Assembly: GCA_009760855.2 (NCBI GenBank) | Contig: WPIO01000034.1 | Coordinates: 641,001 to 705,000, forward strand | Direction: 5' to 3' | DNA length: 64,000 nucleotides | Origin: Cristatella mucedo | Taxonomy: Eukaryota; Bryozoa; Phylactolaemata; Cristatellidae | Shown here: positions 5,366-59,900 of the stretch, one piece after another | Numbering within the stretch: the stretch's first letter is position 1 | How the letters are laid out: every line of letters begins with the position of its first letter | Made by a program: the position numbers and the translations under genes | The notes under the pieces: generated by a model | The model's database searches: none | What the model saw: the letters and a program-made list of their open reading frames with translations, nothing else | What the model was told of the DNA's origin: nothing

Positions 5366-5444
5366 CAAGATTATGAGCTGACTTCCACAGTAGCTGCAAA
5401 GAATTTGTAGCCGAGTTCCTGGGTTTAGAGACTATTTCCCGCTA

Positions 5445-8591: not shown

Positions 8592-8627
<36 letters not shown>

Positions 8628-10080: not shown

Positions 10081-10081
10081 C

Positions 10082-10522: not shown

Positions 10523-10654
10523 CTACACAGAAAGGGAGGCACTGTGGTTGCACCACACAAACGTAGAACTGTGTAGAGAAAACGTGCACATAAAACATCC
10601 ATTTGCCACTGCTCTTAGAGGGTCCTTCTGATTTGCCCTCTATGTGATTATTCG

Positions 10655-10870: not shown

Positions 10871-11053
10871 TTAACATCACTTCGCCTGCATACATTCTCA
10901 CTAATGACAGAGAGCACGCTAAACCGAGTTCGTTTTTCGTTGCAGAATTCTCTTCCAAAAATCGAAGTTCTTGCGAACATCGCATACTGTTACCGATAAG
11001 CACAGAAAGCACTCCGTTCAAAGGCTTTGCTGACAGGCATCAATGGAACTTAC

Positions 11054-11399
11054 GACTTTCCTCAAATTCTCGTCCTTGGCAAACGTCACGAAGCCCCTGG
11101 GACACTAGCTGGCGCCTCCGTTCTTAGGCAGCCTGTCGTAGGCCACGGGAGGGGCGTAAACGGTGGCCGACTTGCCTCGAAACAGCATCGATTCGGTGGC
11201 GAACGTTTTGCTACTACCGACGAGGGCCTTGGCTTTGCTCGACTGGAAGTCGAGCGCCGGCATCTGGGAAAGCTGGCCAGCTTGTATCAAATCAGCATGA
11301 ACATCGTCCTCAGCTTCTCCAGTTAGTCGAGATTATCGTGGCACACTCGCAACGCCAATGCCAACGCCAATGCTCGCCCTTTTCCGGCTTCACTGGATA
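11054..11399 (-). pseudogene. Relic of TPP2 exon E18 (copy A)
   Basis: Splice sites resembling those of E18 are kept (CTGCAG and GTC|GTAAGT). SKAKALVGSSKTF and SATVYAPPVAYDRLPKNGG parallel E18. A TAG replaces the first base triplet of WYL, and the 5' end contains a 12-base duplication (AACGCCAATGCC) absent from B. Length is 346 versus 339 bases, so the frame is lost. Confidence 0.88.
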
Positions 11400-26879: not shown

Positions 26880-26917
<38 letters not shown>

Positions 26918-32900: not shown

Positions 32901-35900
32901 CGACGAAACCAAACTGGTGCTTATAGGACACCCTAAGCCAGTGGCAGGATTAATAGGCTGTGCTCTTCTAATAGGGGATGCTGTCATGCGACCATCACGA
33001 CGTACTCGAAATTTAGGTTTCATTTTCGACAGCTGCCTAAATTTTAAAACCTTCATTCAGAAGACTGTTTCTGCAGGAAGCCATCATGTGTGATCCCTAT
33101 CTAAGATTAGGATCTGCCTTCCACAGTGGCTTGCAAAGAATTTAACTAGCTCCTTAGTTCTGTCTCAGCTTGATTACTGTAATTCCCTTTCGGCTGGGCT
33201 ACCAATGAAGTCAACTAGGCCACTGCAGCTTGCTATGAATATGGCTGCAAGGCTAGTCTTCAAGTACCAGAGGTTTGAACACGTGTCTCATTTGCTAAAA
33301 GATGGCTGCCGGTTGAGCAACGGATATAGTTCTTGCGCTGATCCACAAGGCCTGCCACGGCTTGGCTCCTTCGTACCTAGCTGAAATGCTTAGCCAGTTT
33401 CAGCCTATCCACGCCCCCTGGTCCTGTATGGACGATACATTTGCTGTTCTATTCCCTGCTTATGGATCGTCGGTGACAGGAGCTTTAGCTCTGCAGGTCC
33501 TAGACTGTGGAACTCACTTCCAAAATTCTTAAGCAAAGACAAGTACTCTCCTGCTGCCGGCTATGGCTCATCCTATTCAAGGTTGCTGAGCTTCTACTTC
33601 CATGCTACTTACGACCTCAACTTCTCTTCTGACTTTGCTATGCTTTCCACTTTCTTATTGTTGTATGAGATGAAATCTGTTGGCTACCGAATGCATACCA
33701 AATGTCGCTTAGGCTGTGAGTGTGCTATACACAACTGTCCTGTCCAATACCCACTTAGTCTGTAAGGCTTTATGGAGTTACAAACGTAGAAACATTACAT
33801 TCAATTCATTAGTTATGCTGACAGGCATGGATCGAACTTACGACTTTGTTCACGTTTTTGTCCTTGGAGAAGGTCATGCAGCCCCTGAGATACCAGCCGG
33901 CACCTCCGGTCTTAGGCAGTTTGTCGTCGGCCATGGGAGGGACATAAATGGTGGCCGACGTGCCGTGATGCAGCATCTCGACTCTGTCAAACTTCTTGTT
34001 TCTCCTGACGACAGCCTTGGCTTTGCTCCAGTATATGTCGAGCGCCGGCATTGGCTGAGAGCCGGCCAGCTTGTGCTGAATCAGCACGGACATCGTCCTC
34101 AGCTTCTCCAGGTAGTCACGATTCTCGTGGCGCACTTGTAGCAGCAACACGTGCTCGCCCTTTTCCAGCATGACCGGAGACTGCAGAAGAAAAAAATGGC
34201 TGCTTGCCTTCCGTGCAGTAAGCAAAAAAGACAAGAGTGCTGTTGGGGTGGACAGAGCACGTATGCGGCTCACATCTGACGGTGTTTCAGCATGAAGCAC
34301 AGTCGGCGAGACTGCATGCGAGGCAGCAAGCTTAAAACGATACGAGGCTATTATCAGGGCTAAAATGTAGCTGGTTGCATAAGATTAGCGCAGCAAAATC
34401 AGCTGCTTCCGCTCAAAAGCAAACGAATCGGCTGTGCCTGATGTATTGTGCGACTCGTGCAGTGACTTGTTAAGCCAAAAAAACATCTCACAGGTAATTG
34501 GTAGGCGGCTGCTGCAGCTACATCGGCGCACTGCTTAGCTGAGCGCTCAAAGTTGGCTCGACTAGCACGAGAAGACTGAATCGATAAATTCAATTAATTT
34601 CCAACTTGAACTCCGACATTTTGGTCATGTTTCTGTCCTTCAGAAAGAGACCAAGCAGGGTGAGACAGGCAGAGGCAGGGTCAGACAGCAAGAGGGCACA
34701 CAGAGACTTTGACAATAGTGATCAACTGAGACAGAAAGAATACGAGTCGGTAGAGCCAGAGCCAGCCACAGCCTACGACTCAGTCAGTTACCTAAAGGTA
34801 TCTTCCAACCGGACATGAATCAGGGATGAAGTTTTAGGTAGCTTGGGAGGCTGCTAGGTATGGACTTACTGCAAAGGTGACGACAAACCAGAGTGAGTGA
34901 CGGTCCTGGAAGCAGCCGCTGCCCCGAAGCTGCATTGACAAGTGGCTGCTGCCTCACCCCAACCCTCCCCCTGCCTGGCACCCTTAGAGCAGGCCGAATA
35001 ATGGTTGGGTTCGCTCGATCTCAGCTTTACCCTGCTCGGATAGGCATCGCCACTGCCGACGTGCTGGCGATTACTGTCGAACAACATCCACAGCTGCGAC
35101 TCGAACGGAGACTCGTAGAGCATGTCACTAAGCAGTGGGCAGTCAGGAACGACTTCACCGGATTTGGTCTACAATATCCCGTCACTCGAGTAAACTAAAC
35201 AGCATCTAATCCACAGTTTGTCTCACACTGCACACGGCTAAATGTAAAGCTACGCACTCGCAGCCAAACTGCCACCGACGGCTGAGGCTTGCAATACGAT
35301 GCATTGATGGTTTGCAATACGATGCATTGATGCAATACGATGGCATGGTAGGAGAAGCTAATGCAAGCAAGCATCCATTCAGCAAACTAACTATCGATCG
35401 AAAGAGCAAACCCTATGTGGTTAATGCCATGCACCAAATCCTATTAGCATCCACCTGTTACACATATTAGGGGATGCTCGATCCTGCACAACACAAGTTG
35501 TTGCTTGCTCTTGGACTTTTTCCTTCAACTTAAAATGTGGGATGACAATAATGCACTCGCATTAACTTCATGACCAGTCAGGAAGTATACATGCTTGCAA
35601 TGACAATTCATATATGACAAAAAAGAAGATCCCTATTTTACCTGTGTAAGCCCTCATCCTTGTATAACCCCCCAATTTGTAACCAATTTCTTTGAAGAAA
35701 GAATAACTCTATTCAATAACTAAATAACATCAAGACTTATAGCAATCACTCGTGTGACTATCACTATCCTTTGCAAGAGAGGGTAATGATAATGCTCTGT
35801 CCATCTTCCTCATTGGTATTACGGGCTTTAAATTTAGTGAAAACTTAAGTTACATAATCCTAATAACTCGTCGCTACCGCCGTCGTCGTCGCTACCGCCG

Positions 35901-38900
35901 TCGTCGTCGCTACCGCCGTCGTCGTCGCTACCGCCGTCGTCGTCGCTACCGCCGTCGTCGTCGCTACCGCCGTCGTCGTCGCTACCGCCGTCGTCGTCGC
36001 TACGCTACTCGTCGTCGTCGCTACCGCCGTCGTCGTCGCTACCGCCGTCGTCGTCGCTACCGCTACCGCCGTCGTCGTCGCTACCGCCGTCGTCGTCGCT
36101 ACCGCCGTCGTCGTCGCTACCGCCGTCGTCGTCGCTACCGCCGTCGTCGTCGCTACCGCCGTCGTCGTCGCTACCGCCGTCGTCGTCGCTACCGCCGTCG
36201 TCGTCGCTACCGCCGTCGTCGTCGCTACCGCCGTCGTCGTCGCTACCGCCGTCGTCGTCGCTACCGCCGTCGTCGTCGTCGCCGCCGTCGTCGTCGCTAC
36301 CGCCGTCGTCGTCGCTACCGCCGTCGTCGTCGCTACCGCCGTCGTCGTCGCTACCGCCGTCGTCGTCGCTACCGCCGTCGTCGTCTCTACCGCCGTCGTC
36401 GTCTCTACCGCCGTCGTCGTCTCTACCGCCGTCGTCGTCTCTACCGCCGTCGTCGTCTCTACCGCAGTCGTCGTCTCTACCGCCGTCGTCGTCTCTACCG
36501 CCGTCGTCGTCTCTACCGCCGTCGTCGTCTCTACCGCCGTCGTCGTCTCTACCGCCGTCGTCGTCTCTACCGCCGTCGTCGTCTCTACCGCCGTCGTCGT
36601 CTCAACCGCCGTCGTCGTCTCAACCGCCGTCGTCGTCTCAACCGCCGTCGTCGTCTCAACCGCCGTCGTCGTCTCTACCGTCGTCGTCGTCTCTACCGTC
36701 GTCGTCGTCTCTACCGTCGTCGTCGTCTCTACCGTCGTCGTCGTCGTCGTTGTCATATTTGTCGTCGTTATCGTCATATTTGTCGTTGTTATCGTCATTG
36801 TAGTCGTCGTTGTCATATTTGTCGTCGTTATCGTCATATTTGTGGTTGTTATCGTCATTGTCGTCATCGTCATGGTCGTCGTTACCGTCATTGTCGTCGT
36901 TACCGTCATTGTCATCGTTATCATCATGGTCGTCGTTATCGTCATTGTCGTCATTATCGGCATTGTTGTCGTTACCATCATGGTCGTCGTTACCATCATT
37001 GTCGTCGTTATCGTCATTGCTGTCTCACTCTTTATCGACTGTGTTACCTTGTGTTCCATCTGTTGCATTCGTAATGCCACACTACTTCAAAGCTCTCACT
37101 ATAATATCTCCCTAATAACCTCTGACTGTATTTGTTATTGGGAGCATTTAAAGCACATACGTTGTCTGTCGCAATATTAATGCTAAAAACCTCACCTTCC
37201 ATGTATAAGCCCCTCTCATTTATCCGATCCGACATTTTAAAAAGCAAGGGGGGTTTATACAAGGGGTAAAATACAGTTGGTGGCATGGCTGCCATGCCTC
37301 ACCATTTTAAAGTTGTAAGTCAAATCGAGAGCGTAAATCTGCCGGTTTGCTGGCAAGCAATCACGGTGCGATGACAGCACGTGCAGGTTGCAATACGATG
37401 GTCTGACGGGCTGCACTAGGTATTCGAAGACGATCGCAGGGGCCAGCTTCTCGTCTCGGAGGTGGGCTGTAACATCAACTCTTCCGATGCCGTTAGAACC
37501 ATGCTGAAGAGGATTAACAATGCACTATCCCAGCAAATATGTCAAACACAACACACAGGCTTAACAGTTCAAGTTGAAGCTACAAACGTCCACTTGAAAA
37601 TGATAAAGGAGCTCATGCTAATGCTAACATGCTAACTAGTCGAAAGCTGATCAGTGCAATGCTGACTTCGATCGCAAGCAAACAACCAGCGGAACAGGAC
37701 AGCATGGCATTCTTTTGCCTCTTTGCTGCAAAATATCGTTACTTCGGCGAGTCGGAACTTAGTAGAAGAAAATCGAACGAAAAGTCATCCGTGGAGATGG
37801 TACTAACTTACAGCTACAAAACTAAATCAAATTAAATTAAGGGTAGGAATTTCTATAAAAAAAAACTACATGGATCTTTACAATAGGGCTCAACGGTAGC
37901 AACAGTATGCTGAAGAGCATGCCCGAAGAATACCAGCTCAGCTTCGAGCCTCCAAAGGACTGCACAGTTGTTTTCTGGTACTGGGTCAATGATTATATAA
38001 TCTGCCTCAAAAGGACCCATGTCATGCCCTCCTTGCTCTAACTGCTGCCAAATCTACAGACGGCATATTCAGGCATGTCTTATATCAGTAACATTTTCAA
38101 ACATTCTATAAAGTGGGGCACATTAGAGGCTACCTTTACTTCTTCATGTTTTTCTAAAACCCTATGACCAGCCATTATTTTTTGCCGATCCCAGCAAGCC
38201 CAAAACCATGCCAGTCTTATAAATTCTGTTAGCCTGAGGACGATAAACTTGAAGTGCCATTCAAACGGTGGCCAAGGCGTACCAAAAGCTTTAGCTCTGC
38301 CTTAAAACCCTATTTTCAGTGGACAGAGTGTCTCCGTCTCTTCTGCTTGGACCAGCTTTTTGCCAAGGCATTCTTACATTTGGGCTGCTCTACTTTTTGT
38401 TAACCAGACTTTTGAATGGCTGCAAATCATTTTGTCAACTTTAAATTTTCAGTCAGAACACTTCATCAATCCATACAAATCAAGATCTTGAACGAATCTA
38501 AGCTAAAAGTTAAACGCATGCTCGCAGCAACAACACAGAGAACAATAGCAACAATATAGAGGAAGTACTACGAAGTCACGAAGCTGAAGGCGTTTGTCAG
38601 CCTTACCGTCAACAGTGTTCCGGAGAAACTGAGGAAGCAAGAGAAGCAAGAAGAATTTGAACTCAGATTTATTCCGTCATACTTAATCTGTAATCTTGAC
38701 ATTTAAGGGCGTGAGGGGTTAGTCTCTCTGCTGGAGTAGCTTAGCTGAGGTGCATCTTCCCAATTTGTTCTTAACTGTCTCACCATTCAAAAATGTGTGC
38801 TCTCTCACCCGACTGAACTGCATCACAGGCAATTATCGCCACCACTTCCTAAGCTACATTTTATACCTCGATACCTGAATACCGGCTAATAACAAGTTTC

Positions 38901-41900
38901 AATCACGCTAACTTTTGACAAACAACTAACTGTAGCATTAACGAATGAACACATCTGTCCAAAATCGGTTCTCTTGACGTGACATACAAGAACAAGATCA
39001 GACAAATAGTTTGCAAATGTTGCAAGAAGCAAGCAAATTAACTATTGGAAAAGAAAGTGTTTACCCAGCTCAGGGATGACGGTGATGGTTGAATGCCGTG
39101 GAATTCTACACTATATTCGATGCTCGAAATTCCAGGACTGGACCACCAATTGGCAACGACAACCTCGACCGTCACGTCCTCCTGAAATAAAAAGGCCAAT
39201 TAATTCAGGTCAACCAGCAACTGTGCGAAACTTAGATAACTGCAATTAACGCAGAGAAGGCAAAAACAGAAGAAACCCAGACACCTACAGCTCAGAGACA
39301 ATTTGCGCACCGGTAGCTCTTACTCAGCTCGAGGTGCGATCAGCAGGCATCGTGTCTGCAGTGGCTAGGGTTACGTGCACAATGCCATCGGTGCAGTTAG
39401 AGTGACAGCATACGACCTTCTAGCTGGGTACTGTGCATAAGTCATTAGGCTGTAAATCTATCCAACCTTAAATCATTCGCAGATCAGGCTATCAGTTCCA
39501 ATGCTTCCTAAGCCGGGACCACCATCGACTGACGTCATAATATCAGTTAAGCAAAAGCTAAAGGCACACCTGCTCCTCAGAGCCACATCATTTACTGGGC
39601 CCATGTAAACTGCTCTTTGCGTGATTATGCCCATTAACGAAGTTCATGCTTCCACTTTCCAATTGACAAGCTTTCTTTGAAGTACATATACATTTAACTC
39701 CCTTATGGTCGAAGTAAATGTCTTTTGTTATTAATATAATTATTGGTAAAGCTATTATTATTACTGCAAACTACTCAAGCAAATCTGCCGCATACCAAAG
39801 CTCGCAACGTAGTGGTTTAGTTGGCCTACAGACGCTGGTCACTCAATCGTTTCAATTTGCAAATGTGTCTGCCTATCTAGGCTGCGAAATGCTCACTCAG
39901 CCTTGGCAACTGCTCAGCGGCCATTGATAAAGTTGCAACTTCAGTGACCTGGTGGCAGTAAACTATACCTCGCCTTCGGCTGCTCATCTTTAACTACAAA
40001 CATAAAAGTGCCCGATCTGACGAACTGTAAATGAAGGTGGGCCACAGTAGGAGGGAGATTCAGTCACGTGTGCCTAGGCTCAACAAGGACTGCTCGGGCA
40101 CTTAGAAAATCACCACGCATGCAGGCAGGCTCTATTTTACTGCTGGCAGTTTTCATCTCTGCCAGCTAGATATTTAGATGACTATCAACACCGGCTCAGA
40201 GGTAAGGGATTCCCAGTTCAAAATGGAAAGCAATACATACTGCTTCAGCCACCTCTCATCGAGTTTGGACCTGTTTGAGCTGGCACTGTACAGACATTAT
40301 GTACTTAGCAAACATCAACTTTCCCGTGCACCTTTAAGGGTGTTCTAATATCGAGCAAGAGCTACATACGTACCACGACCTGGAAGTAATAATTGGTCCA
40401 CTGGCCTTGACTGAGAGCGACCACCTTAGCGTTCGACTTCTTCAGACTTGAATCCTTCACGATTTGCCGACTGTGCAACTTGTACTGCGACTTGGTGAAA
40501 GAAGCAAGGACAGCAAGATGCAGCACTAAAACGGTGATGCCTAGAGATCGTACCGGCTCTCCAAACAGATTACCCATCTAGATACTGCGTGCTTCCAGAT
40601 CGGATAATAGAGTCAAGAAGAAACAACACGGAGACATGTGCCACATCAATGGGGCTCACGGCCTGTGCAGACATAGGGAGGCATCTCTGCGTTATAAGGA
40701 TGCAGAGCAGCCCTGCACGGCTGATCTACCTAACCACAGAGACAGGGTATGCTAAAAACTGCATGCAGCAATACTGAAGTGCTGGAAAGAAAGTAGATGA
40801 ACGAATCAAGTGGTAATTGAATTTTGATCTGACAGTCTCCGAAACTTACAGCTTCATCTTTAGCACGACATAAAGAAGAGACTGCAACCCACACTCAATT
40901 CAGCTCAAAAGGTAGTAATCATCCCATCTCAATGCCTGTAGAACGCATAGTTAACTGCCAAAGCGAATCGTGAAATTGTGGACTACGACACCACCTAGGG
41001 GTGAAATGATTTTGCGTACGCGGCAAAGGACCGCTGCCTAAACAAGGTACTGGAGAAGCAGACATGCCTGTGCAGAGGCAGCCCCACAGTGGAGGCTTAC
41101 ATTTCTTCTTTGTTTAAGGATATATACTCCAATCAGCGACCTAGCAAGTAAGCCCCAGTATGGTTTTTAAAGCTAATCCCTTCACAGTCAGCTTGCTTTA
41201 GATTTATAACTCCCTTATCGGGAATGCCGACTTACGTAAAGTCTCTGAGTTTTTGCTTGATATATCGACAGCATTTGATACCATTAATCCTTAAGTCCTT
41301 GTCGAGCGCCTCTCATCTCTTCTGGGCATCACTGATGCTGCTATGCATCGGTTAAGGTCCTACATCAGTGGGAGACTCCAGGGTATTGATGTAAAGGGAT
41401 AAAAAATTATCTGACGAATCACTGCAGCATGTGCTACGTCAGGGCTCTGTGTATGGTCGTCGATGTATCTTCTTTTCACAGTTTACACTCTTCTACTAGA
41501 CGATGTGATCACCAAGCACAATCTAGGCATGCACATCTATGCAAATGATACTCAGTTGTATATTTGCTTCGATCGCTCCCAGCCCTCATCAAATTCTCTA
41601 CAATCCCTTGCTGCAGGTATAAATGACATCTGCATGCAGATGGCAGCAAACTTTCTTAAATTGAATGGCGATAAAAACCAACTTCCTAGTTTTGGACAAA
41701 CCATGTAAGAGTCAGAAAATGGAGATCTAATGCTCAAAATCAGATCGTCTAGCATATCCCCTGAAGCATGTGCATAGAAGGTGTCCTGATTCAGGGGCAC
41801 CTTTGCTAGATCACCCAATCAGATCTTCAGAAATGTTCCTACTTTCAGCTATGGAACATTGCAAAAATTCTGGCTTGCTAAGACAGGGATACTACACACA

Positions 41901-44900
41901 AACTAATTCATGCACTTGTGATATAGTGTATCGACTTACATAATTCATTGCTGGCTGGTATAACGCCTTTGCATTCAGGTGCTTACAGTTTGCGTGAAAC
42001 TCGATAGCAAGGCTTTGCTGTCGTGAACATCGTAGTTACCACATCACTCCACTTCTTTTTGGCCTGCACTGGGTCCCAATCAAGCAGGATATCGACTTCA
42101 ATGACCGATCACGCACTTGTAAGTCCCTTCAGTCTCTAGTTTCAGCATCCCAATCAGAACTACTCCCCTGTCAGGGGGGCATCCTAAAATCTGCTTTTCC
42201 GAATCAAATCACTTAGCTACACCTCACGTGAGTCTGAAATCCTTTGGAGACCATGCCTTTAGTTTCTTTGTTCCATAAGCATGGAAATCATTTCCAAATG
42301 GCATCACGACATCCACTGACGACGATATTTAAAAAGAAACTAAAACCACACCTTCTTATCACAGCAATTGGTGGGTATTTGTGATTCTTCCTTTGTGGAT
42401 TTATGAGTTTTGACACCGAGCAAGCTGCCACTAACCATAAATACATGTTGGCACTGTGGATATCACCTTTAACCATGTTATGGGTTGTTGACATCGTGGA
42501 TTGTTATCGCCAACCATCCATTTGCAAATGGATTCTACACAACAAATATCTAATAGCTAGGAAGAGACTAAGTTTTTGAGATGCAATACAAATGCATTAT
42601 TATTATTATCATTATCACGTGAGTCGTGGGTCCGAGTCCTTCGGTGACAGCTGCGAGTGAGGCAATATCCCTGGCTATGACTTTCCTGCTGCTGCTGCAG
42701 CGATAGAAGCAATAGAAGCAATAGAAATAGCAATAGATGCAATAGAAGGCTGCAGGAGCAGCTAGTCTCTCCTTTTATCAAAGTATTTCTTTTGATTGGT
42801 GGTAAAGCGATGTCTTGTATGCAAATACATTAGTGGCTTTGCTAGCAGAGTACAAAGACAGTGTCAAGATCTAATCAAATTCGACACGGCATGCATATGA
42901 TGGTAGATGGGGCCCTGCGATAGGATGCTGGGGGGCTGAGAGCCCTGCAGGATGTAATGATTTATACCAACTGCAAGTAGGGTGAACGCCATGCTTTTGT
43001 TTCAGCTATAAAATGTTTAAACATGATAATCTGTTTTAATAATAATTATACACTCGATAAAGTGCCCTCAGAGAATTCAATTTCTTTCTAGGCACTTTAC
43101 ATTTGCTGCAAAGCAAACATGATCAAATGGTGAGTGGTATCAATCTTGATAAACAATGCGAATAACATGATTAGGGGTGATATGCACAGTGTCAGCATGC
43201 AAGATTGGTAAGTGATAGCATGCACCGAGGCAGAAAGAATAAGCACATATAAAGAACAAATCACAGGGACCCACAAATGCTGTCATAAGTAGGTGTACTT
43301 TTAATTTCTTTTTCAGTGTGTTCAATATCGGGGATGTCGTGATGGAAGTCGGCAGTGAGTTCAAGGCTTTGTGAGCATATGAACTACAGGCACGATCTCC
43401 AAATGATTTGAGATTTGTATGTTTGTTTGTTTTTGGTAAACAGTTAGTTTCCGAAAGCTGGTGGTACAATGCTTGGCCTGGTGGGGAAGTAAATTTGAAG
43501 GGTAGGCTGGAGCCAAAAAAATAAAGAAACCTAAAAGTGAGCGACAAAACTTTGAAGTCAATCCGTTGCACGACTGGTGGCCAGTGCAGGTCGGCGAGAA
43601 GTGGCGTACCCCAAATATTAGCTAAGACAGTGAGGAGGTAGATGGGGTTACACAAAGACCAAAGAAATACGGCATGGAATTACAAATCACAGCATTTAAT
43701 TCGGTAGAAAGTGAATCGGCAGAGCCCTGCCAAGCTAGTGATAATTTTGAACTGAAATGGTAGTGAGGAGCACTAACCTGCCCAAGTAGCACCTCGAGGC
43801 ACCCGAATGAAGTGCCTCTCAATGGCTCCAGGTCGCATCTGCTTGCTGTATGTCAGCCTGAAGTTGCTGCTATCACTAAAACTTAAACAAAAAGCTCACA
43901 TCAGCTGCATCATGCAACAATGTGCATCAATCTCCCGCACCACTGCCCTGCAAATGCAGACAGAGCAAGGATTGACTAGTCCAGACAGCCCTCACGCCCA
44001 TAGTAAATGCATGCCTGTTTAGCATTTTTAATTGTGATCTTCTTTGCTAAGTAAGGTGTTATTGTGTATGCACACTTCACTATCCTGATATTTATTTCTA
44101 GGCGTAATATTTCTAGTTGCAATATTAATTAGCTCAACTGTTTTACCGTGACTGTACTCAATTCAAAATAGAAAACCCACAGAAATTACAAGTAACATTT
44201 TCTGTTGTACCTGATCACTCTATCTAGTTTTCAATGAGAGCAAATGAGTACTAGTGGCCATCGGTTTTGCCGAACTCACCCAACTATGGCTGCCTGCTCG
44301 ACTACTGCTATATATATATATATATATATATATCAAACTTGGTTTGCAGTAGCTAGTTCTGCCTGCTGTCACGAACGTGGCGGTCGTTGCTATCGAAAAG
44401 GCAACGATGGCAAGAAAACTTGGTCAAACTTGTTGGAAACCCGTCACCTTCTTGAATCTTCAAGTCCCTTATGACTGCCAGCCATACGTTAGCAAACAAC
44501 TTCCGGCAGGTTGTCAGGCTCTTGTAATCAGCTTTGAGGTTCTCATTCCTGAGTGAGCAAGAGGAAGAGATGAGTCCCAGTTCACATTATGGAGCAGCAC
44601 GGGTTTGAGGCTGCCGGATAAGCTGTCTCCGAAGGGGCTTCACTCATTCTGATTACATGCGATTACTATTGCCCCAAAAAAACTCGTCAGGTTAGTCACA
44701 TTGTGACAGCAATAGAAGGGAGAAGCAGAGCCTATATTTGGGACTGTCACACGTGCACCTGCATATATCCCTGTCCTATTTCTCCTCCTCGCTATCAGTC
44801 TCAGGGTACATCTCTTTTCTCTACCATTCTAAATAGCGAGCCCCTCTACAAGCATAAAACTATTGCTCTCCCTTACTTCCTCTTCCTCGTTATCCATTTA

Positions 44901-47900
44901 TCCCGAATATTAGCGAATGGCAAGGCCCAAGGGAATGTCACCTGACCCGAGCAGAGAGAACAGTCTGTGGTGCAGGGTGGCAGCACCCCTTCCATCCTAG
45001 AAAATTCATCTCAAGCAGACTCGCCAGGTCAGTTACATTGTGGCAGGGAAAAGAGGGGCAGAAGCAGAGACGATGTCGCCGGGCAAGAAGTAGAAGCAAT
45101 CTCGGAAGATGCTACATTTCATTTGAGAACTGCACACTTACGCCTGTCTATCTTCCTGTAAACACTGCGTATGGTAAACGATACATCTAAGACGAGCATA
45201 GAGCTTAGCTGTTTGTTGTTTGACCGTAGTACCTAAGAAATTAGGAGCTTGTGGATATCCCTAGTACAAATGTTAGCAGTTGGCACACCTCAATGGACAG
45301 TCGCCTGATTCAAGCTGCAGTGCTGACTGGCAACGCCTAATAGAAGACCGTCCCCTCCTAGAACCGTCCCTGATCTGAGGTATATGTGGCAAGCCACCCC
45401 TGGTTGAAGCAACTACTAGCCACTGCTAGTCGGCATAGCTGCGCATCGTCACAGCAGCTGCAGCCAAGCTTGTGCAAGCGGTACCTCTCTGGCACAATGA
45501 CAGTGACAGGAATGCAGAAGGTGGGTCCTTTCTCGACGTCGGCAATATCGTAGGCCTTCACCTGCAAACGGCCGAAGATCACTCAACTTTTCGAAGGTCA
45601 CGAGTACCACACAAGCCTGACCAGGGCGCTGTCCCGAAACAGGCAGGAAGTGGACAAGCGGCCAAGCGGCCAAGCAGCCGACCGATGTGTGGCTCAGCTA
45701 GAAAACTGCCGGACGAGCAAACCTGAGCAAAGTGAGCCACGCCGGCGCTCAGCCCAGCAGGGTTGACGCGAATAGTGAACGAGCGCTCCATGTTCATGAG
45801 CTCGAGAGACTGAGGCACACTGACGAACGGCTGGTCAGCCACGAGTGCCAGCCGCATCGAGAAGGCCAACTTGTCCTGCGGCTCTGCAATGGCGAGCAAC
45901 ATTGACAGGGCAGCACTCGTTGCACTCGCAAAAGTGACAAGGCGGATACAAGCAGCAGATGTTCTGCTCCACGGCAGACACTCGGACCAAAGAATGCTAA
46001 TCGGTCGGTAAAAGAAGAAACTCGAGTAGTTCACTTCGCAAGCAGCAAAGCCATGTGGACACGTTTGGGGAGGGACCACTCACTGGCTCACTCGCTGCCT
46101 CTGCAGCCGACAGGTGGTAGACCGCATCCAAGAACGCTTGCCATCACATGCCATGCAAGGGACAGGCGGTAAGGAGCAATGCAGCAGGAGCGCAGTAGTA
46201 AGAGGCAGCAGGCAACCGACAGCAGCAGCAGCTGCTGCTGCAGGTATTACTGCAAAAGGAAGCCACGTGCAGCAGCCAGCTGTGCTTACTCGTGTACGGC
46301 TCAAAGAACTCGGGCTTGATGGTGACCACGTGATCAGACGTTCGGTGGGTCTCTCGGAACTCTCGCAGGTAAACGCCTCGGCAGTTGCTTGCCAACGAGA
46401 TGGTGAAGCTAACATTAGCCTCAGGGGCTGAACGTTTCTCAACAGCGTAATTAAACGCTTTGTCAACCTGAAAGGACCAGACACATGCAAAACTTTCATT
46501 AGTCTTACCCATGCTGACAAGAAAGATGACAACTACAGAGCTAGCAAGGTTAGGCGTTCATTACATAGTGCCATCTACTTCGTGCAGACCCACCGCTGCT
46601 GCAGCAGCATCTTCTAATATCTAGTGTTTCCACAAACACCGTTAAAACGTCTCATAATTTCTAGCTAGAATATGCATTCAAGCTTGATAGTGGGTGTCAC
46701 ATTGCTGATAAGGTAAGAACGACATCTAAGGAAAGAAGAGCCAGCAAACAGATCGTGCATAATTGGGACCCTGTGGCGCTACAGATATTTGTGACAAAAG
46801 GAAACCTAGGTAATCCTGTTATTTTGCATTAAAGAGTTGCCACGCTCACAGTGACTGACAAGCCCGGTTGCAAAGTTTTGCAAAAAAAAAGTCTGTAAGA
46901 ACCTTAACGATCTGGTTCCAAAGACCTGCAAGGAGAAAGTTACAGCAGTCTGGGCATTATGTCCACAATGGTTCGACTAACTTAACTGTATTGAGTACGT
47001 CTTAGCATACCGATTGTTTGCAATACTACATTGGCAAAACTTGCGTGATAAGAAAAGTGCACGAGATCAAACATCAGGTAGGCCCCCTAATGGCATCTCT
47101 GGGTACTAGTGGTACTACTACAAGTGGAACAGTGCACAAAACACAAGCTTCCGAATCTTTGCCCCTCCCGGAGATAAATCTCTAGCCCCTTTGTAAATCT
47201 TGCGATCCGGGTGTGATGCCACTTAGTAGGCTGCAACTGCTGAGCAATGCTACTGCATCACATTCAGTGGCAATTTGCGGTCTGATAAAGGTCAAGTCAA
47301 TTTCAATGAATCCATTCGAGGACTTCGTGACTAAGCGACTCATCTGCACATCAAAGCTACAGCAATTGTCAGCCACCCAACCCAGTTTCTAAGTGTTTTT
47401 ATAAAGTGCCAAGGCAATCGCCAGGTCCTACTATGCCGGCTTGCACCAGCAAAGCCAAATCGAGCAAGTTCGTCATTCACAAATTTAATGCTTACAATCA
47501 GGGTACCATATGCTTTGGCCCATAACTACGACCGCCATAATGCTTGCCCGGTTCTGGACGCTGTGAACGTGGCATGCCCCGAAGGCAGCTAGCACTAGCA
47601 CCAGCCGAGCCTGACTATACACCTATAGAAACATCTGACTATATCCTGTAGGTGCGAGGCTGAGCACATCTGGCTGCTCTTATGCCCGACTAACAAACAG
47701 ACCTGCACCAAACGATTCACAGCACCTCATCTTTCCTTCGACAAAGTGACTGACAATGGACTCAGCGATTCCCTGCGGCTCGCAGACCTACAGCGTGTCT
47801 AGATCCCGGTTCTGCTGCTCCTAGCTCAGCCCCAAGCATGCATGTGAGCATGTAGTACAAGTCTAAATTTCCATCCTGGATGCTATGAAGAACATAAATG

Positions 47901-50900
47901 GCAGGACTGCTACTTTATTTCTCTCTATAAGAGATTGTTTTGCCAGCACGTTGGTAGTTGTAATTGGTTATGAATTAAGTTTCCTGACACAACCATTTAA
48001 ACATGGAGTGGGCCTTTCTTACATTAGGAACCACTAACAATGTTTAGCTGCTAGGCCTTGGTAGCAGCACCCCTAAGCAAAAGGCTCTGGTTGCTACCGA
48101 ATGCCCTCGCTGCTGTGACAGCTGCCAGAAATGTATCAACTCAAGCACAGGCTTCAAGCTGAGGCGTCATTAGGAGGTGCTGGAATGTAAAGGTAATTTG
48201 CAGTGCAAGTCTGCAATCGTTTACAAGTCTGCACTTGGCCTGTTACAAAATACTTTCTCCCTGTGAGGTTCTATACCACGACCATCCTGCAATAGGCACT
48301 AAGCAATGCAGTAGTGCTGTAGTTGCAGCTTCGTTGTGGACACGATATGGAGGACTGATAACATAGATGTGATACGAGTACTGCATAAAAAGTAAATGGA
48401 ACTACACAAATAAAGCCATGAAGCAGTTGTTGCAGCAGCTGCAGCTGCAACAGTAGCAGCTGCTGCTTTAGCTGCAGACCTGCAAAACGCCTTCGCCTTG
48501 TGCAAACGACTCCACCCTGTCTATGCTCTGCGCCGTGTTGGCCACTGCACGACGAATGCTGTACGGTGTGTACTTGATGCCACGTGCTTTCAGGCCTAGA
48601 ACAGTAAGAGATCACAATGGCAAATTCACTGCCCCGGAGCTCTGTCACGGCAATGTAACGCCTTGTGAAGAGGCCCATTACGATTTACATTACCTGATAG
48701 GATGTAATGGCACCGCCGGGCGCAGAAATACAAACGCCTAGTGCTCCGTCAACCCTGCAAAAGTAACACTAGCCTCTGCTGCCGACAGGATAGATGCTGC
48801 AGCTGCCTGCCCCTGCTGCCACAGTTGCCTCTGCTGCTTCAATAGCCACCGCCCAACCGCTGCTGCCCGACAGACTAGCTGGCAGAGCAGACGTCGGAGG
48901 TCATGGGCCTTAAAAATCTGACAGCAGTGCCGAAGACCAGCAGCACGACCTACCGACACCAGCACCGGAAGCCAGTTTCGGCATGGCATTGGCGAATGGC
49001 CACCGAATGAGGTGCCGATGAGACCACACAACCAAGAGACATTGCAGCTATCCCAGCAACCACCCTAATGCAGAGCGTAGATGTTTCGGTTGATGACGGA
49101 TAGGGTGCTGTTTTGTGTGTGAAACTATGAACTGTTTCTAGTGAACACCGTCAACAAATCACGAGACATATGAAAAATATGGGCACCGCCTACTAAGTGC
49201 ACTTGATCACAACAGATCCCCACAGAACAACCACCACTGTTGTGGGTATAAGTTCATTCCAGCACTAAGAGGGTTGTCTATGCAGACAGGCATACATACA
49301 TAAGTAGAAGATGCTCGAAAAATCATCGGATATCGTAATGCTGAAATTATATGTCGCAAAGCTGAAATATCACAATGCTGAAAGTTCAGCAACAGCATTT
49401 TTGAAGCACCACTGGTTAGCGTCCTATTCAGTCTCACGCTGCTTCTATGGTTGAAAAGTGTTGCTATTAGACCCATGTTCAAAAGTGCCAAGCACATAAA
49501 ACCATGTCAAGAAGCAGCTTAGGTGGTTTGGCCAACACCAGTAGGCAATCTTATCAGTTAAACTCAGTCTAGGTAGAATAGGCTAAAAAAGAAGAGACAA
49601 CCCAGAAGCTACTGGCCTCTATGCCTGGCCAGACAAGGGAGGTCATAAAGAATCGTGGTAAGTGAACACTTCACACTACATGCATACACACCAACAAGTG
49701 TTTGTCTGTTGGATGTACATAAATATTTTCACAGGCTTGGCAAATTTTGCATGAATGGCTTCATAGAAAACCCTCCTACAACCCAAACGATTTTACAGCC
49801 ATAGTAGAGGCGGCAACATTAAAAGAATGTGTTATGCTTGAGTGTGAGTGTGAGTGTAAGTGTGTGTGCATGCACATGTAGCCACTGTAAGCAATAGCAT
49901 CACCAAATACCCAAACGTAATGGTCTCTGCTAAAGGAGGGTGCCCTACTACAATCAAACTCCGGCATGCATTTTAACTACAGACCAACAGCAGCAGGATC
50001 AGATGATGGATGACCTGCAAAAATGATATCAGAGCCAGCCTAGACATGTCCCTAAATTGAGATTTGCTTGACGTGGTGCCGGCCACGAGACGCCGACGAC
50101 CGATTTTAGGTCAGAAAACAGAAAGCAAAAGCCTTGGAGCAGAGTATTCACAAATATAAAAGCGATCAGCCGTCGAGGCATGCAGCCAGGAGGACCAGTA
50201 CAATTACGGTAGCTAGCTGAGGCAAACTCTTAGGAGTTAATGCATACTTACGCCGGGCCACATGACGACCAAGTATACTGGGTGGGCTGTATTTTCTCGA
50301 TCCCCGAATATGCAGCCATCATTTCAGGTGAGACGAAAGCACCGACGCCTGAAAATTTAAAATTTGGCAGTTGCATCTCTGCATTAGCAGGAGCCTAAAA
50401 CCTTGAAAAGCCTCTATCCCAGTCGATAGCATCGCCTGCACATTGGTAGGACAGGCATCCCGAGAACCGAACAATGAACGTTTGGTTGTGGTGCAGCCAC
50501 ACGGCCATTGCTGCAACTGAGTGTAGTGCTGTACAGCTGAATTACTGCACACTGAAAAGGTAAGCCCCAAGAGAAACTCACTACTCGCCTTATTTGTCTA
50601 AGCTTGCACAAGATGCTTCCCACATACTCATGCCGGGATTTTTGCAGTTGTTTATTGCCAAGGGAGCTTCGCTGCCTGCTCGGCCGCCTATCTTCTTATT
50701 CTATATATTCTATATCTATCTTCTTATCTTACTCGTCTATCTAATGCCTGTCTTTGAAATTCTTGCTCGAAAAACCCGAAAGGCATCTCCCTTCATACTT
50801 CAATATTCGTCAAAACTGGTTAAGGCATTGTCGCACGAACCTTCTCAATCTCACACCATTTGCAATATGCTGAAAGCCGACTTTCAAAATCTCTTGTTTT

Positions 50901-53900
50901 GAGTTTATTTGACACAAAGCTGCCAATGATGGCAGTAGTCCATCGCCCCTGTTATAAAGTCTTCCTTTACCTCATATTTCTCCAGAATTCCTTTGCAGCA
51001 AATGCAAAGTGCCCAGGAAGAGATTGATTTATCTGAGGGTGCTATATCTAGGGTATTATTGTTATCACCATCATCACCATTATTATGGCATTGGGATTCA
51101 TTGTGCATGAAATCAATCTTTCCTAGCTGTGGGTGATTTTACAATTTGATTCACTATTAGACGCCGTAAGTGCCACATTTCGTGCACTAACTGACTCAAT
51201 TTCTCTTAAGGCTCATGTGCATGGCCCAACTCAAATCAAGGGTCACACATTCGAACAAGTGTTATCCTACACATGTGTGCTATTAGCATCTAATATTACT
51301 AGATTCTGCTTATCTGCCTACATGGTGATCTCATTTAGGCTACAGTTACCACCTGCTCTTCTGCATCTAAAGTGATCTGTCTATCGAAAAATCTCAAGCC
51401 CCCTGACATCGATCAAGTCAACGCAAGAATACCTTCTTTGTCCCAACTGCTTAATTCCATTTCGAACCTATCATCATTGGTAGAATGCTACCCGACAGTA
51501 CCTGTGATGCAGGACGAGCTTGAGCCTTTGACTATGTGTCTAAAACGTGCACACCCATACGTCCTGCGGTTTAAAGCCGACACTAATCTTGCCTAGTAAG
51601 CACCATATTTTCAAAGCATACAAATGACATCAAGACTGAATGTCCATCGAAATTCATATGATGCCTAATATAGACCATTCGATTGTGCTTCGTTTATAGC
51701 AAATAAAAATATGTAAAAAAAATAAATAATTAAATTGTAAAGCATTTAGAAAGAGATTAAGTTCTCTGTGGGCGCTTTATCAAGTGTGCTATTATTATTA
51801 TTATTATCGTACCAATCCGCCTAGCTTAAATGCAAATATTTTTAAACATTATATGCACGATCCAGAAATGCTGACGACTACGATCAAACATCTCCTTAAA
51901 TGCTCCCAGGCTAGCTCCTTACATAGTGGCGATCTAGCTGATCACTTCTCTGCTTCTTTGTCAGCAAGACAGACAGTCAATCCCCAAGGTAGCAGCATCC
52001 TTCTACAGTGCTTGCACTTCTCTGCAGATGACACTTAGTTGTACCTTGGCATTGATCTTTCAAAACCCTCCAGCACGTCAGATTCTCTCAACTAAATTGC
52101 TGCATGTTCTGCTGACATATGCACATGGCTGGCAGCAAACTCTCTCCATTTAAATGACAATAAAACCAAATTTCTACTTAGGTGCAAACCAAGTGTGACT
52201 CAGAACTAGGAAACCATAACACTCAAAGTCGGCTCAGCCAGCCTATCTTGAACGGAAAAAGATCATCTGAAGTACCTCTGAAATATGGAGTACCTCAGGG
52301 TTCCGTGCTAGGTCCGGTTCTTTTCACGGTTTATACTCTCGCTCTTGCCGATGTGATTGCCAAGCACAATCTAGGCTTTCACTTCTATGCTGATGACACT
52401 CAGTTGTACCTTTGCTTGTATCCCTCCCAGCCTTCGAGCACCTCAAATTCTCTCAACTCACTTGCTACATGCATTGATGACATCCACACATGGATGGCAG
52501 CAAATTTTCTAAAACTAAACGATGATAAAACTAACTTACTAGTTATGGGCAAACACAATGTGATCAAATGATTGGAAAGGCTGTCTCTCAAAATTGGCTC
52601 TGCCAGCATATCTCCTGTCGAATCAGCTCGAAATCTAGGTGTCATATTCTAAAGCGACCTCTCCTTTGACGACCATATCAGCTCCAGAGTCAAATCTGCC
52701 TACTTTCAGCTTCATAACATTGCTAAAATTCGGGCTTGTTTAGATAAGGATACCACGTCCAAGTTGGTCCATGCATTCATGAATCCCGTCTTGACTTCTG
52801 CAACTCACTGCTTAGTTGCCTACCAGCATGTGCGATAAGGCGATTGCAGCTGGTGCAAAACTCTGCAGCTAGGCTTGTCTGTCGTGAGCGTCGCAGTTGC
52901 CACATTACTCCACTTCTCGCCGACCTGCACTGGCTACCAGTCAAGCAACGGATTGACTTCAAGTTTTTGTCGCTCACTTTTAGGTCACTTCATTCTTTGG
53001 CTCCAGCCTATCTGTCAGATCTACTCCCCCACCAGGCCAAGCATCGCACCACCCGCTTTTCGAAATCCAACAGTCTACAAATTCCTCGTACAAACCTTAA
53101 ATCCTTTGGAGACCGTGCATTTAGTTCATATGCTCCCAAAGCCTGGAACTCCCTCCCGACCTGCGTCAGAACATCCCCTGACCTGATCACATTTAAAAAG
53201 AACTTAAAAAACACCTATTTAGGACAGCATTTAGTGGGTCCCTGTGATTAGTCCTTCATGTGCTTATGCCTGCTGACGCTGTGCATGCTGCCACTAACAA
53301 CATTTGCTTGCTGACCCTGTGCATGTCACCCCCAACTATATTATTCTTTTTCTTTGTTATTCAAGCATGATTTTACTTCCATTCAATTGCATTTCCCTTT
53401 GCAGCCAATGTAAAGCGCCTAGAAAGAGATTAAGTTCTCGGTGGGTGCTTTATCAAGTGCAGTATTATCTGCACGAAGTCTAGGTGTTCTGTTCCATGGT
53501 GGCCTTGCACTAGATGAAATCAGTTCCACAGTAAAGTCCGCCAATTTCCGGCTATGGAATTACTATAATTGAGGCATGCTATAGCAAGTATAATATGTCC
53601 AAATTGGACCATGCATTTGTAACATTCTGTCTCGACCATTGTAACTCGCTGCTTGAAGGTCTACCGGCCTGTGCAATCAGGCACTTACAAGTAGTGCAAA
53701 ACTCTAGGTAGTCTCAACAGCTAAGCTGCTGTCACTCGTGAGCATATCAAGTCCATTCATTGTCTGGCGCCAGCCTCTCTATCAGAACTACTATCCTGTT
53801 AGGCTAGGGATCGTGCCACCCATAGTTTTGAGACAAAAGGTTCAGGTATGCCTCATACCAACCTTAAATAATTTGCAGGCCTTACATATGAGCTTCATAT

Positions 53901-56900
53901 ATGCGTTGGAGGTCGGGCCCACGACCTCAGCCAGACCATGGTCAGCGCGAGCACCTTAACCACTGGACCAAACCAGCTCGGTGATACATAAATATATAAA
54001 CATATATTTTATAGTACACTTAACTCCTCCGAAGAGATTAAGTTATTAGACTAGGCTTTTCAAAAGTAACTTTGCTTTGCAAACTTTGCTTTGCATAGGT
54101 AACTTTGCAAACGTATTTTTATTATTATTATTGCTAGTGTAAGTATTACTATAAGTGATACTAATTGGTTTGCAAAGCTAGGGCATAAACGGAAGTAATC
54201 ACTATACGTTGGCCGTAAGAACTAATACTTCTGATGGCTTTCGTCCATGTACAACAAGGTTCGGACCTCCCTTAAAAAGTGAACACGGCTATGGTTCTGA
54301 CACAGTGCATACACACAGAGGTAGGAAGGGCTACCAAAGAGCATGTCAAGAATGAACCGTGACATAATCGACAATCACACAGAAGCAAGAACGTTGGCCA
54401 TAGAGTTGAGATTTTAACTGTGAAGCCGTGAAGGTGTAAACCAATTGATGCAATGTTTCAGCAACAAAAAAGGGTTCAATCCGAAATTAGAAATGAAGGG
54501 ATAGGTATTGAGAAATGGCAGCACATACCGATGATGGCTGTAGTGGTACCACCGGGAGATGCAACTGTGGTTAATGCAGGCCCTCGATTACCGACACTTG
54601 ATACAAATATTATTCCGTGCTGATTGACAGCCTCTGACAAGATCTGAATAATTCGACTACAAGACACATTTACAAGTTACACAGTGACGAACGCAGCCGA
54701 AGCAGCAGTGCAATCGTAAGGCGACATACTTCATTAAAATAGTAAGCCGGGCAAATTGCATAGACGAATATGGTTACAAAGTAAGGTGACACTGCACACT
54801 CAGTATCCATAACTTGTCATGCTTATAAGAAGTAAAAGTCACCAGAACATCAAAGTGGTAGCAACCTCATTCTTACCCATCGTTAGGCCACTGGGATGCT
54901 CTTCCGAAGCTGTAATTGATCAGGTCACATTTAAGTTCGATAGCCTTAATCGTCTAAAAATCCAGATACTTGCAGTTGACTCATCATTTTTGAGGTGGAT
55001 GTCACTGACTAGAGTAGAGAAGTCAACTTGGGTCAGACCGTTCATCCTGTCTCATACTTACTGCTCTGACTAGAGCACTTCCTGTGTCAATAGATTTCAG
55101 CCGAGCGTCACTAATTTTCAAAGATACTAATGTTGCACTGGGAGCAACACCGTTTTTGGTTGGATCAGAGGGAAAGTAAGCAGCAGCAATAGCTGCTACG
55201 TGCGTTCCGTGTGCATCTGAAAGAAAAACAGAAACTAGTTTTGTTGAGCACCAAATCGCTTATCCTCGCGAACTCACTACCCAACACAACCCATAAGATG
55301 GGTACATCGTTATTAAATTGATTTCGCATAAGCCTGCAGTGGTCAAGAGCAGCCATTCTCTCACACTAGTGATACCTGTGTATTTACAAGAAATGAATTC
55401 CCATTATTTTCTGGTGACAATGAGTAAGCACCACATCTGACCACTTTACTATACTAGGCAAAATATCCTTTTAATACCAAAGCATAAAATTTCCTGTTGC
55501 ATGCTGAATTTTTATAAAAACAGATCAACATAAGTCATAGCCTCAGCTATAGCTACAGTTAATGCCTTCATGGTGCTATGCAAATGTTGAGGCAAGCAAT
55601 TAAACTTCATCATTGCTAAGCAAAACTATTACAGTCACAAGTGCAATATAGGAATCGAAATGTCTTCATTGGTTGGAAACAGCAGCATCACACATTAGAA
55701 GAGTTAAGTCTTCTAGCTTATCTAGTTACACCCCGTGGATAAGGTGTTTCCCTTTGACTACCGAGGTCAAAGATAATGCATTTGCCGACCACGGTCGTGA
55801 CCTCAACCTCTGTGGCATATGTGGAGCACCGGAATAGAGATTAAGGTCTCTTAGGTCGCTATGCAATGTATTATTATTTTTATTATCCCTATCTAAGATT
55901 ACAGTCTGAATATCACAGTGGCTTGCAAATTTAAATGTGTAAATAAATTAATTAGTTAATAAATTATAAAGAGTGACACTTTAGGCATCATTTCACTGCT
56001 GTGCTGGTTCATGCTGAAAGCTCTGAAAGCTCTCAGGCTAAGGGTGAGATTAGACATCGACTAGATAACCAAGGTATGATTGCCCAGAAAGGACGAGTAA
56101 AGCCAGCTCTGTGAGTTGAGCATAAAGCGGCTCGTTTGGAGTAGTACAAGGCTAGAGAACACTGGACAAACGAAGAACGACTCAGAGCCCATTGGGGGAT
56201 GAGAGTAAACTTACCATTTCGGATATTGAAAAACTGAATGCGCCTCTCCAATAAAAGTGAACAGAGAAACGTGCAGTGAGCAGGGAAAGATCCGAAATTT
56301 TGCCAAACAGCCGAGGACTTGAGACGAAAAAGTGCTGATGAAGTGAGGACCATGTATACGAGACAGGGGGAGCGATATTAGCTAACGCTGCACAAAAATG
56401 TGCCGTGTGTGTGCACAGATGTGCTCGTGCACTCGCATGCATGCTGCGCATAGGACCTCCAGGTTATTATTTGCAGAACTTAGCATTAAATGCCATCTCA
56501 TGTTTAAGGCAAAGAACCAATGCCAGACAAGTTGCTGTACAATTCCGATTGATTGTGTAATTTTGAATGATATGACATTGATGTTAATAGTTCGTAACTC
56601 CTAAATCGAGGTCACCATTGATCTTGTGGCTAAAAAATTTGATAATCTCTCATGCCTTGAGTACATGCACATGGTGCTGTGCACAAAGGTTACAAACCAG
56701 AGAACCTAGAAAGGCAAGCTAGAAGAATGACTTTACACCATAATATAGATCACCGTAGCAACCAAAGGTACTGCTACTGCAATCAACTACTTTGATACCA
56801 AGCCTGGCAAGACTCAACAGAGAGCATAGTCTCGTAGCACGTGGAGCGTATACAGCTGGCCCAAAAAATTCCCCTTGCCTGTCAATTAAGATATGGCATC

Positions 56901-59900
56901 AAATATTTCAGGATCTTGTGGACTTCTGGCCACAACACTTCACTAGATCACAGGATTCACGTGAGTTAGCAATATTTGTAACCAATTGTGTATGCTGCTA
57001 CCTTGGTAATCCTACTGGGTAGGCAAATAAGGAACATTGCCTTGATTAGCTGTTTTAAGTAGGTTTGAAAACAGTTGCGGTTTTCGAAGGACAGCTTTTT
57101 GCTAGCATCACAAGGACACGGTAAAGTATGGGCTTTTGAATATCATAAATATTCCCTTCTAAGAAGAATGCATTTCGACAACTTAACAGTTCATCGGGAA
57201 GGATTAAGGTCGTAGACATCCGTACTGCCCATGAATTGAGAAAGATACAACCTAGCGAGAAATTTGCAAGATACCGGTATTGTAGGTAGATTGAACAATA
57301 GACCAGAAAGTGATGTTTCCTGATGACAAAAGACCAGCAGGACCATAAAGATCCTCAATAGAAGTCTAGGAAAACATCTGAGATGCCAAGAGCATGGTGA
57401 TCAGCATGTATTAGAAAGTTTCAATCGAGATTTTTAGAAGGCACTATGTCAGCTTATTATCTCTGCTTCTCCCACCTAATAGCATATGAAAATGGCATAG
57501 AAAGAGATGTAGTTCTCTTAGGGTGATATCCCAACGTCTCAACATAAGTATGATTATTATTGCCATTACCTCCACCTTCTTGCCTATAATAATAATAATA
57601 TTATTATTAATAATGCATATGATATGGCTTCCTCAGAGAACTCAATCTCTTTCTACACACTTTACATTTGCTGCAAAGGAAGCACGATTGAATTGCTAGT
57701 GGTAGCATGCTCAATAAACAACAAGAATAAGATGGCTAGGGGTGACATGAACAGGGTCAGCATGCAAGTTGGTTAGTAGCAGCATGCAGTGTCAACATGC
57801 ATAAGCACATAAAGGACGAATGGCCTATATCACCTATATCGCCTATATACCTCGTACAAACCTCATATTCTTTGGAGACCGTGCATTTAGTTCGTATGCT
57901 CCCAGAGCCTGGAACTCCCTCCCGACTTGCGTCAGAACATCCCGGGACTTGACCAAATTAAAAAAGAACTTAAAAACACACATATTTAGGACAGCATTTA
58001 ATGGGTCCCTGTGATTCGTACTTCGTGTGCTTATGCGTGCCGACAGTGTGCATGCTGGCACTAACCACATTTGCATGCTGACCCTGTGCATGCCACCCCT
58101 AACCATGCCATTCATGTTGTTTGTTTATCAAGGATGATATTACTCACAATTCAATTGCATTTATCTTTGCAGTAAATGTAAAGCACCTAGAAAGTGATTA
58201 AGTTCTGAGGGGGCTATATCAAGTGCATTATTATTATTATTAATATGATATCAGCTAAGCCATAATACCAGAATATGCACTAGTCAGACAGACCAAAGAA
58301 TTATTAAATGAAACCGAAGCTTAATGCACTGAGTCCAATCGAAAAACTGCTGAAAAAGTTAACCAGCCCACACGAAATATCTTGCTACTTAATGGCGCAC
58401 AACGCATGGTACCTATGCAAATTATACGAAAGGCTGAGCACATTGAGCAGCAATCACAGTGTTGCAGTATAAGCGTGGGTGTGCATTAGCCATGCCGTCT
58501 ACAAGAAGCAAGCATGACAAGACTAGCCAAAAATAGTCAACTAGCAAGTGATTGCACCAAAATCCTGGATAAAGGATCTGCTAGGTCTCTCGGAGAAGAG
58601 GGCTGGAACAGGTAGCCTGAAATTGCTACTTGTGAAACTCTCCGGAAGTGGCACCTGCCAAACTGCTCCCCTTGAAAGGCCCGGGTCGGCTTGCTCATGC
58701 TGCAGATGACCGATTGCTGAACAAACCATCATAGAATAACATCTTCAGCATACACATTGACTTAAGTAGGTAAAAATGCCATTGTTAGTGGCCTATGGAG
58801 TAACGTAATTACTATGGCTTTTCTCGAAATGAGGCATTAGGCACCTGCATAGCGATACGGCTCTCTTAGTGTGCTACACAAAAGGATTAGCAATATACTT
58901 ATTATTGACGAAACAACGATTGGTCGAACACGAAATAGAAGTCGATGGCAGCATCCACAATGATAAACCAGTCAATAAGGCTCAGCTGTTGTAACGGTAA
59001 ATATGCTGAAACGGTCGCACATTCAAGCATTATCACCAAAGGGTGATCACAAAAGTGGCATTTCTGAATTGCCGGCTAAGCGCCATGCCCTTCCTATGGA
59101 AAACATGAGACAGCAGCACATGTCTACATTCGCTAAAGTTCTCATTACATCAACCTGTTTCATAGTGCTTACAGATGCAATCTGATAGAAATTTGGAAGT
59201 ACATGCAAAAATTAAGGCTTGAATCTGTCAGCAGCAAGCCTGCAGTATTTGGATGCATTTCATCAAGGCTGAGTCTCATTCAGCCAGATCGACATCAGGC
59301 AAACTAATAGCATCTCAACGGCTTGCCAGGATGAAAACCTCCAGAAACTATACGGCAATACGTGCACAACTTTTGAAAAGAATTACCACACTCTGAACCA
59401 AATAAAGGAATTGGCAGCTAGTAAGAAATCGCTGATCTGATCAAACTGCACAAAAGTTCAGATCATCCATTCTATCAGTTATCAGCTGCGGCATAAGGAA
59501 CAATCAATGCTTATCGAACTTCTTGAATTGATATATCCCATTGATGACTGAAGCTACAAGCCCGTCTTATGGCAAGGCTAAATTCGGCTGCCATACATTA
59601 AGTTTGTTTTAACTTTGTGTGATTGAGGTTCGCGATAGTTTTTCTTATTCAAGGAAGCCTTGCAGCTATGCCAACATGAAGCCATCCATCCATCGCCTCG
59701 AGATTTCTTGAGTTTTCGTCACTTTAATCGTGTACAGACTATAGGCAAGCTGACACCCAGCACCACCCAGGTGCAAGTAAATCTGGTAGGTTCACAGAGC
59801 TTTACCCAACACGAGGTTGTGCTCGTCAGAAACGATATTCATATCAATGTGACCAATTAGCTTAGAATATCTACAGTGTTGTAGCATAGCCATGGCTAGA

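Follow-up and report, generated by a model that had tools for sequence, protein, structure and literature searches.

An 88-base deletion within exon 8 and the probable recent inactivation of a tandem TPP2 duplicate in Cristatella mucedo

Introduction

TPP2 belongs to the subtilisin family S8 and is represented here by the human protein and the Drosophila structure 3LXU. In PMC2933905, the catalytic triad of human TPP2 is given as Ser449-His264-Asp44 and the architecture as stacked dimers. The gene described in this work, copy A, lies in a 64,000-nucleotide stretch of Cristatella mucedo DNA, referred to as the window. It shares with TPP2 the Peptidase_S8, TPPII_Ig-like-1, TPPII, and TPPII_C domains, but it is devoid of the nucleophile segment, and its frame is lost past exon 8 (E8).

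Copy A can also be compared with tandem duplicates killed by a frameshift, that is, pseudogenes. The two are alike in having one frameshift, a close intact copy, and, in the array, a decayed copy (copy F); the difference is that copy A shows one lesion so far, which corresponds to an early stage. A further comparison is provided by the subtilisin-fold pseudoproteases, of which CspC of C. difficile is an example. The known pseudoproteases retain, to our knowledge, an open frame, whereas the frame of copy A is not open in its normal splice form. It is another member of the array, copy D, that resembles them in losing catalytic residues within the S8 fold. Among the papers listed in literature searches, as judged by title and the beginning of the abstract, none describes a tandem TPP2 array, from which absence is not implied.

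Results

A TPP2 gene on the minus strand of the window

A tblastn search of the window with a human TPP2 sequence located copy A on the minus strand (Table 1). Exon borders were set for 20 exons, and 16 of the 19 joins tested are in phase. The out-of-phase joins are E13/E15, E20/E22, and E8/E9. The mismatch at E13/E15 is explained by E14 (40525-40374), and the E20/E22 join lacks E21, which was searched for in the window and not located. The TPPII_Ig-like-1, TPPII, and TPPII_C domains are found within the downstream exons, and Peptidase_S8 is also present among the pieces of the gene. Domain matches above the cut-off were obtained for PF21223 (E 1e-33), PF12580 (E 6e-60), and PF12583 (E 2e-10); the match to PF21316, for the piece of copy A supplied, is under the cut-off. 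The likely final coding exons were picked by eye, and their resemblance to human TPP2 is weak (E 0.45 and 3.7). No convincing match to the exon of the catalytic Asp was found in the window, nor up to 4 kb farther upstream of copy A.

Table 1. Features of copy A and its surroundings, in window coordinates
Feature	Position	Strand	Remarks
E2-E7b of copy A (upstream exons)	50252..62156	-	joins among them in phase
E5 of copy A	55216-55062	-	catalytic His
E7a of copy A	54656-54529	-	oxyanion Asn
E8 of copy A	48694..48754 (48754-48694)	-	61 bases, against 149 in each of copies B, C, and D
Deletion junction in E8 of copy A	48699..48703	-	TCC microhomology at 48702-48700
E8-E9 intron of copy A	48596..48693	-	98 bases (GTAATG...TTCTAG); ordinary intron, also 98 bases in copy B
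E9 of copy A	48480..48595	-	intact; phase not matching E8
E10-E22 of copy A (downstream exons)	25287..46467	-	frames open; E21 missing from the list
Likely final coding exons of copy A	20592-20482 and 19168-19085 (span 19085..20592)	-	end YTLF, then stop
Patchy A/B-like tract	47500..49070	-	from A-B identity in 250-base windows
Copy F, decayed 3' TPP2 fragment	2752..11358	-	remnants of E18 and E19 carry stops; E22 is open

A tandem array of TPP2 copies

When the organism's own genome was searched with a 1-kb query centred on the region of E8 of copy A, further TPP2 copies were found on the contig that carries the window (C277): copy B near 772 kb, copy C near 897 kb, and copy D near 959 kb, the last on the strand opposite to the other copies. 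A genome search with PF12580 placed 12 of 12 matches on C277, three each for copies A, B, C, and D, and no TPP2 locus off this contig was found among its best-scoring candidates, which do not amount to an exhaustive list. The second TPP2 locus that the initial annotation had proposed to look for has three counterparts on the same contig and none elsewhere among those candidates. Copy F is a fifth copy, which runs on beyond the window at its low end and whose last exon carries a stop.

The PF12580 matches contain a TAG in copy B and a TGA in copy D. By our own reading of the sequence, these matches overrun the exon ends, and the TAG sits in the acceptor of E17 of copy B and the TGA just past the donor of E16 of copy D. 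E6 of copy B (C277:777578-777502) has a GC donor (TGGGCAAGT), compared with GT in copies A, C, and D. Repeats at 11.5-15.2 kb, 52.0-53.5 kb, and 57.8-58.2 kb of the window also occur in the surroundings of copies B, C, and D. The frame at 52916-52999 resembles a LINE reverse transcriptase in its motif.

E2-E10 of copy B align to residues 111-571 of the Drosophila TPP2 structure 3LXU (E=3e-121). The codon of the catalytic His is CAC in copies A (E5, HGTHV), B, and C, and CAA (Gln) in copy D. The oxyanion region reads SVGN in copy A, SAGN in copy B, TVGN in copy C, and SVLD in copy D. The catalytic Ser within GTSMxxP is absent in copy A and present in copies B and C, which retain the active-site residues tested. 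Copy D (C277:942868-981682) combines the change of the catalytic His to Gln with that of the oxyanion Asn to Asp and with GASVASAN around the Ser. The exon of the catalytic Asp was not found for copy B (785001-793000) or copy D (940001-942867).

The nucleophile segment is absent from within exon 8

In copies B, C, and D, E8 is a single exon 149 bases long; that of copy A measures 61 bases. The exon ends are the same in all four copies, and copy A retains the original end, CTATCAG/GTAATG. Over its first 55 bases, E8 of copy A is 98.2% identical to copy B, 96.4% to copy C, and 90.9% to copy D. The 88 bases that are absent lie in the middle of the exon, with a TCC triplet at each breakpoint (a 3-base microhomology), and because of this repeat the junction has four equivalent placements. 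The nucleophile motif sits inside E8 itself in copies B, C, and D; the segment absent from copy A encodes GTSM in copies B and C, and the version in copy D is NGASVASANACGG.

Since 88 is 1 modulo 3, the frame is shifted and the normally spliced message of copy A stops at codon 2 of E9. E8 leaves in phase 0 and E9 requires one carried base, so that the translation of E8 ends in a frame-shifted YQ and the direct join to E9 gives TAT CAG GCC TGA.

The initial annotation had already reported the GCC TGA produced by this join, and its coordinates, splice ends, and phases around 48596..48693 are correct. It had also noted that the other joins are mostly clean and the exons free of decay. However, it had concluded that a whole exon was missing, and had placed the loss in the 98-base gap between E8 and E9. 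This gap is a normal intron; the loss is within E8, and both original splice sites are kept. The expected size of the missing segment, about 94 bases and 1 modulo 3, was near the 88 bases observed, which share that remainder.

The absence of the catalytic-serine sequence from this gene, the central point of the initial annotation, is borne out. Searched with the catalytic-serine peptide of copy B, the window gives no hit at E<=5, and a 20-base pattern from the same segment has 0 matches in the window with up to 3 mismatches allowed. Transcripts joining E8 to an exon at another place in the window had been named as one finding that would speak against a missing exon; these searches gave no candidate for such an exon.

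Splicing around the lesion

The splice-site matrices were based on 65 of 66 donors, with the E8 donor of copy A left out. Several candidate routes around the lesion were rejected. Skipping E8 alone leaves the frame broken. Two GT dinucleotides of the needed phase inside E8 score -1.1 and -0.4, compared with 4.0 for the lowest of the 65 real donors, and an intronic donor at 48629 (score 1.7) lies behind an in-frame TAA. An acceptor 46 bases upstream of E9 fits the frame with a score of -0.1, and by our own reading this frame meets a TGA. A join of E7a to E9, in which E7b and E8 are skipped together, keeps the frame, and so do some longer skips; the double skip would take out part of the S8 domain.

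Integrity and constraint of the copies

We compared 18 exons, of which 12 were available in all four copies (E5, E6, E7a, E7b, E8-E12, and E16-E18), E2-E4 in copies A, B, and D, and E13-E15 in copies A, B, and C. The E13 boundary defined in copy A fits no AG in copy B; judged by eye, the acceptor of copies B and C lies 6 bases upstream, and their E13 sequences as compared are without those 6 bases. Leaving out codons split by introns, there are no in-frame stops in copies A (0 in 851 codons), B (884), C (719), or D (761). Besides E8, length differences (in E7b, E14, and E18) are multiples of three, and no other frameshift or stop was found in copy A across the 18 exons. This absence of further decay is consistent with a young event.

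Pairwise dN/dS between the copies ranges from 0.12 to 0.56 by exon group, several groups having small counts. In the seven four-copy exons outside the A/B-like tract described below, the codon changes unique to one copy (synonymous/nonsynonymous) are 10/16 in A, 20/4 in B, 18/17 in C, and 27/27 in D. The contrast with copy B in these exons gives uncorrected Fisher P values of 0.0016 for A, 0.014 for C, and 0.006 for D. Measured against a neutral nonsynonymous share of 0.747, copies B (P=4e-9), C (P=8e-4), and D (P=8e-5) fall below neutrality in the same exons, and copy A is not significantly under it (16 of 26, P=0.097).

The contrast between copies A and B is absent in the three-copy sets, where 'unique' also includes changes common to the absent copy: the counts are A 15/13, B 13/8, and D 13/8 in E2-E4 (A versus B, P=0.77) and A 5/6, B 9/6, and C 8/6 in E13-E15 (P=0.69). 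Within the tract (E8-E12) they are A 1/4, B 1/0, C 10/7, and D 20/10. Pooled without the tract, copies A and B differ by 30/35 versus 42/18 (P=0.011), a weaker contrast than in the seven exons, and copy A is below the neutral nonsynonymous share (35 of 65, P=0.0002). These counts suggest that constraint probably acted on copy A over most of its history, in keeping with a recent loss. A relaxation of copy A before the deletion is possible.

A patchy tract of high similarity to copy B

The deletion junction lies in a stretch in which copies A and B are nearly identical. Identity is 344/352 (97.7%) upstream of the junction, 87/98 (88.8%) in the intron, and 337/343 (98.3%) downstream. The 11 differences among the 98 intron positions are clustered in the 5' part, beside the junction. 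In successive 250-base windows from 49000 to 47501, A-B identity is 99.6, 89.9, 98.0, 94.7, 93.2, and 88.8%, and a second high patch is observed near 46000-45501 (98.0 and 95.9%). Immediately before this, the first five 250-base windows on the upstream side of 49001 have identities of 71.2-80.1%. On that side, 20 of 28 windows yielded an alignment with copy B, and in 18 of these 20 copy C is closer to copy A; the B-like stretch is therefore the exception. The tract most likely reflects patchy gene conversion, judging from these identities.

With windows picked by eye, A-C identity is 79.1% in four tract windows versus 83.6% in eight outside. The remaining two windows of the tract (85.5 and 84.8%) point the opposite way, and the mean of all six is 81.1%. 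Given these mixed values, we draw no donor or direction for the exchange between copies A and B. The deletion may sit at a conversion seam or be a product of error-prone repair, two possibilities that the data do not separate, and it is probably no older than the A/B exchange. Dating by the tract is loose, because the intron beside the junction differs from copy B at 11 of 98 positions.

Discussion

Our preferred reading, to which we assign a probability of about 75%, is that copy A, a tandem duplicate of TPP2, was inactivated recently by an 88-base deletion that removed both the catalytic Ser and the frame. The 88 bases would have been lost between two TCC triplets of E8, and the nucleophile loop with them. 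From the sequence, the resulting frameshift makes the normally spliced message end at the second codon of E9. Since the lesion lies inside the near-identical A/B stretch, it would have arisen after the exchange or as a mistake in its repair. Copy B, whose His, Asn, and Ser are all intact, probably does the housekeeping job of TPP2, which would have made copy A dispensable. The product of copy A may be a truncated, inactive N-terminal fragment, or there may be none if the message undergoes nonsense-mediated decay. The loss is most likely young and an ordinary case of gene loss among duplicates. The 'recent loss' considered in the initial annotation comes close as regards age, since the loss looks young, but what was lost is a part of E8 and no exon.

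The inactivation rests on one deletion in one assembly, which could be an error or a heterozygous allele. In that case the true copy A, or the other haplotype, would have the full exon, and the 88 bases would have been dropped because copy B is near-identical at this position. The lesion indeed falls where copies A and B are most alike, so that reads could be misassigned, and the compared exons of copy A are without a stop in 851 codons. However, reads misassigned to copy B would add the full exon rather than delete it, and the intron differences specific to copy A (11/98) directly adjoin the junction. Moreover, a 3-base microhomology at the breakpoint is usual for genuine deletions. We consider such an error or allele unlikely. 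That the missing exon is spliced in from another place in the window has a probability close to nil, given the negative peptide and pattern searches and the position of the motif, which is part of E8 in copies B, C, and D.

Copy A might instead encode a functional, non-catalytic subunit, if splicing bypassed the frameshift, as a joint skip of E7b and E8 would do. The in-frame join of E7a to E9 would allow this, the other exons are open and, where their neighbours are known, in phase, and the sister copy D remains in frame despite the loss of catalytic residues. Against it, neither the skipping of E8 alone nor the nearby splice sites mend the frame, and the predicted double skip would delete part of the S8 domain, which makes a functional copy A highly improbable. 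The initial annotation had listed an active-site-less paralogue among its options. Copy A is one of four paralogues and its Ser is gone, but normal splicing leaves its frame broken, and it is therefore not simply an in-frame protein without an active site. The description fits copy D better, with its His to Gln and oxyanion Asn to Asp changes. Copy D, with no stop in the 761 codons compared, appears from its sequence to be a pseudoenzyme, keeping an open frame without catalytic residues in the exons seen.

With recent inactivation of copy A retained as the preferred reading, the result for this copy is mainly a correction: the apparent missing exon is a small in-exon deletion in a duplicated gene. 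Taken together, and of more use, the copies represent several stages: copy B has the tested active-site residues intact and is under strong constraint, copy C is in frame with these residues intact, copy D is in frame with a damaged active site, copy A is freshly broken, and copy F is decayed. A rather doubtful but wider possibility is a mixed system, in which catalytic copy B and in-frame non-catalytic subunits (copy D, and perhaps later copy C) would assemble together into the giant TPP2 spindle and tune it, copy A being either recently discarded or a second non-catalytic subunit produced by the E7b-E8 skip. Copy D, which is in frame and has lost part of its active site, is the member of the array most worth further work. 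With TPP2 copies at several stages, the array therefore offers a test case for non-catalytic subunits in a giant homo-oligomeric protease.
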